Positions 28,471 to 39,162 of a stretch of 64,000 bases of DNA are shown here, in pieces. Each line of letters begins with the position of its first letter. The first letter of the stretch is position 1. The stretch is from NCBI GenBank assembly GCA_017543285.1, contig JAFYGK010000028.1, positions 62,001 through 126,000 on the forward strand, in the 5' to 3' direction. Position numbers and translations under genes: made by a program. The notes under the pieces were generated by a model. That model was not told the DNA's origin. It saw only the letters and a program-made list of their open reading frames with translations, and searched no databases. Source of the DNA: Clostridia bacterium (lineage in GTDB: Bacteria > Bacillota > Clostridia > Oscillospirales > Acutalibacteraceae).

Positions 28471-29814
28471 TTATATATTCAGAATCTTTGTTGCAACAGT
28501 AAAATAAATAATTACCGAACAGCAGTCGACTATTGTCGTGATGAGCGGCGAAGCCATTATCGCCGGGTCGAGCTTGAGGCGTTTTGCGAGCATGGGCATT
28601 ATAACGCCAAGTGATTTTGCAATGCACACTGTGCAGAACATTGCAAGAGATGTCGCCAATGCAAGCGGAAGGTCCTGATACATAATCATTACCCTTGCCG
28701 TGTTTACCGCGGCAAGCGCGGCGCCGACGATCAACGCGATCCTGATTTCCTTGAACCAGGCCTTTAAAAAATCCCCGAGGCCAATATCGTCGATTGCCAT
28801 ACCTCTGATGATCATTGTGGATGCCTGCGATCCGCAGTTTCCTCCCGTATCCATCAGCATGGGCAAAAAAGCGATGAGAAGGGGATAGGCGGCAAAAGCA
28901 GTCTGATAATTAGTAATTATGAGACCGGTCAGCGTCGCGGAAACCATAAGAACAAGCAGCCAGAGTATTCTGTTTTTCGCATGGTGTAAAACGGTGGTTT
29001 TGAAGTAACTGTCCTCGATGGGGCTCATAGCAGCCATCTTAGCGAAGTCTTCCTCGTTTTCCTCCTGCATGACGTCCATAGCGTCGTCGACCGTGATTAT
29101 TCCGACCAGACGACCCTCTCTGTCAACAACAGGGAGCGCAAGAAAATCGTATTTATCGAAGATTTTAGCGACGTTTTCCTTGTCCTCCATGGTATCGACA
29201 TAAATAATGTTTGTTTCCATTATATCGCCGATCAGAGCGTTCGGGTCACTGAGAAGCAGAGTTCTGGCCGTAACGATTCCGATCAGGTGGCGCGCGTCGT
29301 CGGTTACATAGCAGGTATAGATGGTTTCCTTGTCTATCGCGTAGGCTCTGATCCTTTTGAAAGCCTGCTCAACAGTCATGTTTTTTCTCAGATCCACATA
29401 CTCTATGGTCATGATGGATCCGGCGCTGTCCTTGGGGTATTTTAAAACCTCATTGATAATCTGACGGGTCTGCGGGTCTGTATTTTTTAAAATCCTTCTT
29501 ACGACGTTTGCAGGCATTTCCTCGATGATATCAACGGTATCGTCGAGGAACAGCTCGTCGAGAACCTCGCGAAGCTCTTTATCACTGAATGCATGAATCA
29601 GTGATTCCTGAACATCCGGATCCATTTCGACAAAACAGTCGGCTGCAAGCTCCTTGGGCAGAATACGGAAGACCAAAGGAACGTATTCCTCGGGTATCTC
29701 CTCGACAAGGATCGCTATATCGGCCGGTTCCATTGTTGTCAGGATGTTGCGAAGATCGGATATTTTATGCTGCTGCAAAAGGTCAAGCATATCTGTGATT
29801 TGAGTCATTGGCAT
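28471..29814 (-). CDS. mgtE: Magnesium transporter MgtE
   Basis: Mg2+ channel with a cytoplasmic sensor. The 447-residue protein has an N-domain of helical repeats (about 15-125) and two CBS domains (about 130-255, with the closing DVMQEENEEDFAKMAAMSP plug helix). Five membrane helices follow, containing the pore segment PLLIAFLPMLMDTGGNCGSQASTMIIRG. ATG 29814 has AAGGAGG four bases upstream; the ATG two codons later (29808) has ten bases of spacing and is equally possible. It is preceded by a 490-base leader with an M-box riboswitch and a small open frame. Confidence 0.96.
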   Translation of the reverse strand: MPMTQITDMLDLLQQHKISDLRNILTTMEPADIAILVEEIPEEYVPLVFRILPKELAADCFVEMDPDVQESLIHAFSDKELREVLDELFLDDTVDIIEEMPANVVRRILKNTDPQTRQIINEVLKYPKDSAGSIMTIEYVDLRKNMTVEQAFKRIRAYAIDKETIYTCYVTDDARHLIGIVTARTLLLSDPNALIGDIMETNIIYVDTMEDKENVAKIFDKYDFLALPVVDREGRLVGIITVDDAMDVMQEENEEDFAKMAAMSPIEDSYFKTTVLHHAKNRILWLLVLMVSATLTGLIITNYQTAFAAYPLLIAFLPMLMDTGGNCGSQASTMIIRGMAIDDIGLGDFLKAWFKEIRIALIVGAALAAVNTARVMIMYQDLPLALATSLAMFCTVCIAKSLGVIMPMLAKRLKLDPAIMASPLITTIVDCCSVIIYFTVATKILNI

Positions 29815-29840
29815 CTGTCCTCCTTACCGATTTAATGCGT

Positions 29841-29857
29841 CCGCTTAAACTAAGCGG
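29841..29857 (-). promoter_or_regulatory. Small hairpin just upstream of the mgtE ribosome binding site
   Basis: CCGCTTA (29841-29847) and TAAGCGG (29851-29857) make a seven-pair stem with a three-base loop, about 15 bases upstream of AAGGAGG for mgtE. It could affect ribosome access; the role is inference. Confidence 0.4.
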
Positions 29858-29900
29858 TTACTCGGAAGTAATACACAAATGCGAAAAGCTGCAAAACCGC

Positions 29901-29976
29901 TGTCCGATACCGGTCTCCCGGAAAACAGGAGCGCAATTTTTATTGCATGCCGGGATCGGTGCAAAAACATCGGACA
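29901..29976 (-). promoter_or_regulatory. Nested RNA structure in the mgtE leader
   Basis: Four helices nest inside each other: TGTCCGAT/ATCGGACA (29901-29908 with 29969-29976), ACCG/CGGT (29909-29912 with 29957-29960), CCCGG/CCGGG (29917-29921 with 29950-29954) and GCAAT/ATTGC (29933-29937 with 29942-29946). In the mRNA, the 5' arms lie in the last dozen codons of the small open frame at 29940-30044 and the 3' arms lie after its stop. A translating ribosome would therefore break the structure. No T-run follows, so it is not a simple intrinsic terminator. Confidence 0.55.
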
Positions 29977-30044
29977 CAAACGGCTGCTGTTTTTGCGCTG
30001 CTTCGTCGCTTGTCGCCTGTGTCGTTACCGCCGGATGTATCCAT
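29940..30044 (-). CDS. Candidate 34-residue leader peptide of mgtE
   Basis: A short open frame between the M-box terminator and mgtE. ATG at 30042-30044 (complement) has the strong ribosome binding site GAGAGGTG six bases upstream, and the frame ends with TAA at 29940-29942, 125 bases before mgtE. The peptide begins MDTSGGNDTGDKRR and ends in a cysteine-rich segment VCVRCFCTDPGMQ. It matches no protein I know. The strong start site and the overlap of its 3' half with a nested RNA structure suggest a regulatory leader peptide; a chance frame is possible. Confidence 0.5.
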   Translation of the reverse strand: MDTSGGNDTGDKRRSSAKTAAVCVRCFCTDPGMQ

Positions 30045-30080
30045 TGTTTTCACCTCTCAATAAGATAATTTTTGGAAATT

Positions 30081-30106
30081 AAAAAATCCGCCGATATGCC
30101 GGCGGA
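30081..30106 (-). terminator. Riboswitch-controlled terminator of the mgtE leader
   Basis: On the minus strand TCCGCCG (30106-30100) and CGGCGGA (30093-30087) form a seven-pair stem with a six-base loop, followed by six T residues (30086-30081). It lies directly downstream of the M-box aptamer, the place of its expression platform. Confidence 0.9.
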
Positions 30107-30302
30107 AAACTGGGGTGCAACAATATAATTGCTATCCGTTCAAGCTTTAGCATCACAGGGCGATGAAATTGCGTTAAATCACACCTTGGTTTCGATATGA
30201 TCTGTTGACCTTCTCATAGTGTCTCCACTACTCCGCGGCAGCAACCCGTATCCCTGTGGTAGCCTTACCTACCGAGCATATCATTCAGAGAAAAAATCCT
30301 CT
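30107..30302 (-). promoter_or_regulatory. M-box (ykoK) magnesium riboswitch
   Basis: Read on the minus strand, the leader contains the conserved M-box segments in order: GGTAGGTAAGGCTACC, GGGATACGGGTTGCTGCCG, GGTCAACAGATCATATCGA, AAGGTGTGATTTAA and GTGATGCTAAAGC. These match the B. subtilis ykoK leader as I know it. The aptamer core spans about 30135-30285. High Mg2+ folds the aptamer and allows the terminator at 30081-30106; low Mg2+ permits read-through to mgtE. The regulatory logic is family knowledge, not tested here. Confidence 0.93.
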
Positions 30303-30308
30303 TGTATT

Positions 30309-30337
30309 ATTTTATTATATCAATAATCCGTTGTCAA
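30309..30337 (-). promoter_or_regulatory. Promoter of the mgtE leader
   Basis: On the minus strand a perfect TTGACA (30337-30332), 17-base spacer and TAAAAT (30314-30309). Transcription should start near 30302, just before the M-box. Confidence 0.85.
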
Positions 30338-30386: not shown

Positions 30387-30656
30387 TTATCTCAGAAGGA
30401 AATAGATCAGCAGCCCCTGCAGTATCATTATGGCCGGGATCCCGGCCATAAATTTTAGCTTTTTGGTTTTGTGGCGTATCGTCAGCATTGTAATAAGCAT
30501 TGCCGCCGAACCTCCCAGAACAGACAAAAGCAGCAGTGTGTTTTCCGGCACGCGGCGTTTATGCTTTTTTGCCCTGAGTTTGTCGGAAACGGTCACAACG
30601 ACCGATATTATGCTTATTATTGCCAGACAGGTTATAACGATATGTTCCGATTTCAT
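30387..30656 (-). CDS. DUF1294 small membrane protein
   Basis: The 89-residue protein has three hydrophobic helices and the DUF1294 signature: DKLRAKKHKRRVPENTLLL, then GGSAAMLITMLTIRHKTKK. The domain is common in Firmicutes (YsdA-like) and its function is unknown. ATG 30656 has only a poor ribosome binding site (AGAGG twelve bases upstream). It is divergent from the GHL10 gene, with 50 bases between them, and its stop is 50 bases before the mgtE promoter. Confidence 0.85.
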   Translation of the reverse strand: MKSEHIVITCLAIISIISVVVTVSDKLRAKKHKRRVPENTLLLLSVLGGSAAMLITMLTIRHKTKKLKFMAGIPAIMILQGLLIYFLLR

Positions 30657-38865: not shown

Positions 38866-38897
38866 GAAAAAAGTCCGTCCCAATAAACGGGACGGAC
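38866..38897 (-). terminator. T-box-controlled terminator of gatCAB
   Basis: On the minus strand GTCCGTCCC (38897-38889) and GGGACGGAC (38881-38873) form a nine-pair stem with a seven-base loop, followed by six T residues (38872-38867). It directly follows the T-box sequence and is the terminator half of the attenuator. Confidence 0.9.
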
Positions 38898-39162
38898 AAA
38901 TAATATCCGCGGTACCACCCGACTTGCCGACGCCTTTGCCGACCGCTTGTCAGATACTTTACTGCAAAAAGCACAGTTAGTACAAAAACGCTTTAACGCT
39001 CGCCATGCGTGTTTACCTACCGCCGCACAGGTTTCGGAAAAACAGGCTCAAAAGTGTTCTTCATCTGCCATACCCTCCTGCACCGTCTCAGTCACGCGGC
39101 ACAATCCCTGTGAAGGCTCAATGCAGACTACTGCTCTTTATCGCTGCCTTTAGCTTTATTAC
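38898..39162 (-). promoter_or_regulatory. T-box riboswitch leader of gatCAB, probable Asn specificity
   Basis: The minus strand carries the antiterminator core GGGTGGTACCGCGG (38920-38907) just before a terminator, and upstream a stem I with AGAGCAGTAG-type 5' strand. The 3' side of stem I reads GAAG-AAC-ACTTTTGAGCC; aligned to the usual specifier-A-CTTTTGAGC pattern, the specifier codon is AAC (39058-39056), i.e. Asn. Uncharged tRNA(Asn) would stabilise the antiterminator and raise gatCAB expression. The T-box call is firm; the specifier reading is an alignment by eye. Confidence 0.9.

Follow-up and report, generated by a model that had tools for sequence, protein, structure and literature searches.

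The leader of the Mg2+ transporter gene mgtE described here probably holds two Mg2+ controls in series, an M-box riboswitch and, behind it, a small upstream open reading frame (uORF) whose translation would shut the start of the transporter gene. We give this reading, which was drawn from sequence, a probability of about 0.6. The leader lies in the window, a stretch of 64,000 nucleotides from a Clostridia bacterium (contig JAFYGK010000028.1, positions 62,001 to 126,000), and its parts are the following.

30309-30337, minus strand: sigma-70-type promoter, TTGACA-17-TAAAAT (consensus scan, 11/12)
30125-30283, minus strand: M-box Mg2+ riboswitch aptamer (Rfam RF00380, 102.5 bits, E 1.1e-21)
30087-30106, minus strand: expression platform of the M-box, an intrinsic terminator, CCGCC..GGCGG followed by T6 (consensus scan)
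30058-30051, minus strand: Shine-Dalgarno (SD) sequence of the uORF, GAGAGGTG, strong and ideally spaced to the ATG
30044 (ATG) to 29940 (stop), minus strand: uORF of 34 codons, MDTSGGNDTGDKRRSSAKTAAVCVRCFCTDPGMQ (ORF list)
30035-30059, minus strand: segment S, the uORF SD, start codon and codons 2-4; partner R (duplex -22.8 kcal/mol)
29997-30034, minus strand: segment A, uORF codons 4-16; partner B (duplex -34.6 kcal/mol)
30003-30008, minus strand: rare arginine codons CGA-CGA in frame, codons 13-14 (sequence)
29953-29979, minus strand: segment R, 3' part of the uORF; partner S, and also the 5' arm of the outer nest helix (duplex fold)
29901-29976, minus strand: nested local helices, predicted to compete with S:R and to bury the anti-SD (minimum-energy fold, z -2.9)
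29908-29929, minus strand: anti-SD segment, CCTGTTTTCCGGGAGACCGGTA; partner C (duplex -19.2 kcal/mol, or -20.4 with slightly wider segments)
29862-29901, minus strand: segment B, spacer segment with TTACTTCC; partner A (duplex fold and covariation)
29841-29857, minus strand: CCGCTTAGTTTAAGCGG, a small hairpin shortly before the mgtE SD (folding energy of 29860-29838: -8.6 kcal/mol)
29815-29832, minus strand: segment C, ribosome binding site of mgtE, AATCGGTAAGGAGGACAG (duplex fold)
28471-29814, minus strand: mgtE, Mg2+ transporter of 447 amino acids (PF03448, PF00571 (CBS), PF01769)

The aptamer scores above the RF00380 gathering score of 44, and with a terminator on its 3' side and mgtE downstream the element is by its make-up an ordinary transcription-terminating M-box, its switching being predicted. 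The M-box, its terminator, the 34-codon frame with its strong SD and a set of nested helices had all been proposed in an initial annotation of this DNA and were confirmed in the window, as was a stem close to the mgtE ribosome binding site, which corresponds to the hairpin CCGCTTAGTTTAAGCGG. Also seen in the window were a strong palindrome, TTATGGCCGGGATCCCGGCCATAA (30428-30451, plus strand), which lies upstream of the mgtE promoter within a small frame (30387-30656, minus strand) and is a possible plus-strand terminator, and an ordinary T-box leader (38885-39153, minus strand, 100.6 bits).

In M-box leaders of the taxonomic family of the window (27 of 200 genomes) the terminator is often followed by a short frame that shares this strong SD and begins in a related way; it precedes mgtE and also the gene of an MgtA-type P-type ATPase, and was present as well in many mgtE leaders that have no M-box at all. 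One other genome of the same genus (n=1, 88% complete) gave neither an M-box nor an mgtE match. A sequence-only model of 73 nucleotides, R1, covering the SD and 19 codons, was built from 20 sequences and used to scan whole genomes at the level of family, order, class and phylum; the uORF of the window, itself one of the 20 sequences used in building the model, scored 32.9 bits (E 9.9e-8). It was found that 77 of the 80 model loci examined lie upstream of mgtE or mgtA. The remaining three (L127, L129 and L240) are weak matches (E 3e-4 to 7e-4) with no transporter leader at the site, and were rejected as transporter leaders; judged by eye, L127 is presumably the start of a longer gene, which we take to be accA, and L240 presumably lies within dnaX. 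Independently of the model, an exact 30-nucleotide pattern, GAGGTGAN{4,7}ATGGAYGCNGGNRGYAGY, was run on 84,980 genomes and gave 105 matches, 103 of which precede mgtE or mgtA; the other two had no gene identification (contig edge or too little sequence).

Matches to the uORF place it in Clostridia and Negativicutes, and probably in Bacilli. Named carriers are Evtepia gabavorous, Bittarella massiliensis, Phascolarctobacterium faecium, Clostridium sp. OS1-26 and Clostridioides difficile CD160, and in Trichococcus palustris the uORF stands behind an M-box, the search having given no identity for the gene downstream. Cultured, non-pathogenic carriers include E. gabavorous, P. faecium, T. palustris and B. 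massiliensis. A few loci depart from the usual arrangement. In Clostridium sp. OS1-26 (L165) the uORF is present and the nearest recognised transporter gene is 804 nucleotides away, and at two other loci (L145 and L213) the uORF is followed only by a distant MgtE relative, with 33% and 27% identity.

The encoded peptide is about 30 amino acids long, usually starts with MDAGSS and has the consensus M-D-A-G-S-S-x-G-T-x-P-x-G-R-S over 55 non-redundant leaders. Residue 2, the sole conserved acidic position, is Asp or Glu in all 55; the window peptide starts MDTSGGND. Across codons 2-12 in the same leaders, the first, second and third codon positions had mean entropies of about 1.0, 0.9 and 1.5 bits, respectively. 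Codon usage in the uORFs was compared with that of the downstream transporter genes: arginine is written CGA in 50 of 76 cases in the uORFs and in 55 of 978 downstream, and serine is written AGT in 96 of 156 and 161 of 1333, respectively. The motif CGAAGY was in frame 51 of 53 times while shifting between codons 11 and 19, and an in-frame CGA at codons 8-18 occurs in 85 of 103 uORFs; when the transporter genes were divided into 11-codon windows, 2.5% of these contained one. The peptide is not conserved in the late part of the uORF. By comparison among leaders, the entropy pattern and the codon choice show that the uORF is under coding selection, with the rare CGA held in frame, and this coding conservation suggests that it is translated.

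It could also be proposed that the element is a structured RNA, either a riboswitch or a protein-binding leader, in which the frame is coincidental, as its covarying helices (see below) are strong and some of the conserved letters could be RNA contacts. However, third positions vary, CGAAGY stays in frame at a shifting distance, and the SD and start codon are ideally spaced, making a coincidental frame extremely improbable; the first two of these grounds, together with the codon bias, led us to reject a purely RNA-based, non-coding motif. Pfam, NCBIfam and Rfam gave no family for the uORF region. Divergent members were also seen. Two M-box mgtE leaders (L015 and L030) have a GTG start, peptides beginning MDPSDYN... 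and MDSSDYN..., and CGAAGTA in another frame, while L019, L007, L024 and L025 have the starts MEPGYPDGP, MEPGSTGG and MEGNPGDR, somewhat nearer the acidic/proline start of enterobacterial MgtL.

The relation of the uORF to the M-box was assessed in those leaders with enough upstream sequence. When M-box calls made with a simple pattern were checked with Rfam, an M-box was found in 18 of 18 pattern-positive leaders and in 0 of 20 pattern-negative ones. An M-box was present in 12 of 16 mgtA and in 6 of 82 mgtE uORF leaders. The initial annotation had viewed the second layer as an addition to the M-box, a part of the proposal that did not hold, as 76 of the 82 mgtE and 4 of the 16 mgtA uORF leaders are without one. 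Dependence of the uORF on the M-box was rejected, and since the M-box is missing from most mgtE uORF leaders, the uORF can be regarded as an independent device. The window is of a minority type of mgtE leader, in which M-box and uORF are stacked. A tandem arrangement was observed in L073 / L164 (L008), where two uORFs about 227 nucleotides apart follow one M-box; the order is a frame starting MDNGHHRSF... with an in-frame CGA AGT, a terminator-like hairpin, a standard MDAGSSNG uORF and mgtA.

Three pairings tie the uORF to the rest of the leader. In S:R the SD, AUG and codons 2-4 of the uORF pair with its 3' part, in A:B codons 4-16 pair with the spacer, and in B:C the spacer pairs with the transporter SD up to the start codon, often through bases overlapping the partner of A. 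In the window these three (30059-30035/29979-29953, 30034-29997/29901-29862 and 29929-29908/29832-29815) had been missed by the initial annotation, and they involve more of the leader than it had drawn. Covariation was assessed by an alignment-free test, in which the duplex energy between the two arms of a leader was set against the energies obtained with arms from other genomes, with row, column and GC effects removed; kinship among leaders would lessen, not produce, a contrast between own and foreign arms. In a discovery set of 55 leaders the z values for S:R, A:B and B:C were -13.9, -13.4 and -8.2, and in a held-out set of 48 leaders, obtained from the pattern alone, they were -11.3, -11.8 and -5.5. 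Five control pairings (S:B, A:R, R:C, S:A and A:C) gave no signal, with z between -0.8 and +2.2. Compensatory change can be seen in L063, which has AAAAATGGATGC/GCATCTGTTTTT where L059 has AAAAAATGGACGC/GCGTCTGTTTTTT; further examples of pairing are L125 (GACATAAAA/TTTTATGTC) and L093 (GGTGCAAA/TTTGCATC). The position of the three pairings suggests their link to uORF translation.

The same holds for the window itself, where 0 of 101 foreign R arms fit S as well as its own, and where the foreign arms as good as its own numbered 1 of 102 spacers (B arms) for A and 5 of 102 anti-SD spacers for C. As the window M-box has a complete terminator, it might be supposed that only the M-box matters there and that the uORF is a relic. 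A relic is very unlikely, however, for nearly all foreign arms match the S:R, A:B and B:C arms of the window less well than these match each other, which argues that the pairings are maintained.

In about 80% of leaders the partners of A and C have an overlap above 30%, although the family-wide overlap of 0.68 is only modestly higher than the 0.60 found for random placement. In the window the anti-SD (29929-29908) adjoins the A partner (29901-29862) and shares no bases with it, so exclusion between A:B and B:C would be steric. S:R and A:B have no bases in common, and they could therefore be alternatives or parts of one pseudoknot.

The initial annotation had centred on the nested helices, with the 5' arms in the last codons of the uORF and the 3' arms after its stop. 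The nest (29976-29901) is indeed the minimum-energy fold of its stretch, and its outer helix has the 5' arm in the last uORF codons and the 3' arm past the stop as drawn; the region 29990-29890 folds at -37.2 kcal/mol (z = -2.9, with 2 of 200 shuffles as good). Pairings attached to the uORF do covary, yet those with conservation seen across genomes are S:R, A:B and B:C rather than the nest drawn there. In the predicted fold R forms the outer 5' arm of the nest and the anti-SD lies buried. The nest would thus compete with S:R and tend to leave the mgtE start open, and it might be a local variation on the logic of the three conserved pairings. A terminator-like hairpin in the 3' half of the uORF was present in 27 of 103 leaders, compared with 6.1 expected from codon shuffling, and was not found within the uORF of the window. 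A terminator inside the uORF was rejected as a universal part, as it occurs in 27 of 103 leaders only, was not seen in the window uORF and has no clear link to absence of the M-box; it is a variable extra and not a defining part. The wider idea of a second, translation-coupled layer gained support from the strong conservation of the frame and its start site before mgtE and mgtA and from the covariation of the attached helices. Of the two features whose joint absence in relatives would speak against it, covariation and conservation, both were found, and the idea was clearly not refuted.

We propose that when a ribosome initiates on the uORF and slowly crosses codons 1-14 it would occupy S and A, with the CGA codon, plausibly a timing device, lengthening its stay. 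With S and A occupied, B would pair with C and translation of the transporter would be off, and in about a quarter of leaders the terminator-like hairpin in the 3' half of the uORF may add to the shut-off. At low Mg2+, initiation on the uORF would fail or ribosomes would drop off early; without a ribosome S:R and A:B would form, the uORF start would be sealed, C would be free and the importer would be made. For the sign of the response and for its dependence on Mg2+ we rely on inference from the geometry of the leader and from the mgtL precedent of enterobacteria. As the downstream genes encode Mg2+ importers, one would most naturally suppose that the uORF is translated efficiently at sufficient Mg2+ and that its translation fails when Mg2+ is scarce, as with mgtL, while early drop-off at low Mg2+ is an assumption, as the MDAGSS peptide lacks the EPDP motif of MgtL.

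The same architecture might serve a different signal. The uORF may read general translation capacity (ribosome number, antibiotic or amino acid supply) and not Mg2+ itself, so that import follows ribosome activity. What is read is ribosome occupancy, with no ligand, Mg2+ is already sensed by the M-box in some leaders, and cellular Mg2+ is tied to ribosome content. We nevertheless hold this to be doubtful, since both the near-exclusive association with mgtE and mgtA and the uORF leaders lacking an M-box suit a Mg2+ signal. Another suggestion would be arrest, in which the peptide or CGA stalls the ribosome at low Mg2+ or under other stress and opens the transporter start, as in erm leaders, the uORF then being an activator when stalled. 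The N-terminal peptide is conserved and a rare in-frame CGA lies near codons 12-14, and Clostridia do use arrest peptides, as reported for CliM (PMC13183943). But a ribosome at codons 12-14 would cover most of A, so that A:B would be prevented and the start closed by B:C, which is the wrong sign at low Mg2+, and a stall would be of use in the late uORF, whose peptide is not conserved; arrest is therefore unlikely. The reading in which uORF translation shuts the transporter start at sufficient Mg2+ is the one we retain. Beyond the window, and more tentatively, with the odds somewhat against, Bacillota may have a widespread, undescribed ribosome-based Mg2+ sensor, in which the MDAGSS nascent peptide and the slow CGA time the ribosome against the folding of the mRNA being translated, and which some leaders have stacked behind an M-box. 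If this is true, the mRNA of a stacked leader would read free Mg2+ by its aptamer and ribosome-effective Mg2+ by its leader peptide.

The findings suggest a widespread and so far undescribed control in which the translating ribosome decides when to import magnesium. Leaders with the MDAGSS uORF are common in gut bacteria, where they are used with or without an M-box, and the in-frame CGA and the covarying helices offer precise targets for mutation. In the literature, in a search that took in few subscription journals and whose silence is therefore no proof, neither a paper with an "MDAGSS" peptide nor a description of such a uORF before mgtE was found.

A standard M-box (ykoK, RF00380) and its intrinsic terminator make up the upstream half of the window leader; the M-box family proper is without a uORF layer, and most mgtE uORF leaders are without an M-box. 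The initial annotation knew of no described example of the combined arrangement, a statement that needs qualifying, as a leader with a conserved uORF behind its M-box was reported in Mycobacterium tuberculosis in 2026 (PMC12810186), although with an unrelated peptide and mechanism. In the pe20 leader of that species an M-box precedes a highly conserved uORF2 (Rv1805A), whose conserved proline 7 belongs to a peptide reported to be specific to mycobacteria, and the M-box itself switches uORF2 translation via an anti-SD, with Rho-dependent termination (PMC12810186). The two leaders are alike in joining an M-box and a conserved uORF; where uORF2 has proline 7, the window peptide has N and the family mostly N, S, G, C or K.

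Attenuators of the erm type are alike in that the main SD is opened or closed by alternative pairings, the choice between them falling to a ribosome on a leader frame. There, however, a drug-induced stall opens the gene; the signal and sign are other and no homology exists. The uORFs lack the run of codons for a regulated amino acid that marks trp-type attenuators: they contain just one or two CGA codons, and the gene behind them encodes a metal transporter.

Leader-peptide control of Mg2+ import is known in enterobacteria from mgtL and corL. In the mgtL system, efficient uORF translation represses mgtA, and of the two exclusive folds of the leader one closes off the SD of the uORF itself (PMC11552253; PMC11282234). 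Like mgtL/mgtA of Salmonella and E. coli (and also corL/corA), the leaders described here have a uORF before a Mg2+ transporter gene, mutually exclusive leader folds, a stem sealing the uORF SD and, as proposed, the transporter off when the uORF is translated. MgtL differs in relying on an acidic/proline EPDP motif, whereas MDAGSSxGTxPxGRS is unrelated in sequence and has no EPDP. The output of mgtL is Rho-dependent termination, while here it would mainly be sequestration of the transporter SD, some leaders adding a terminator-like hairpin, and mgtL is enterobacterial whereas the MDAGSS uORF occurs in Bacillota, often with mgtE. The MDAGSS uORF is thus best described as a putative new, non-homologous family of Mg2+-transporter leader peptides. 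A second unrelated family, if true, would mean that reporting of Mg2+ by the ribosome arose more than once.
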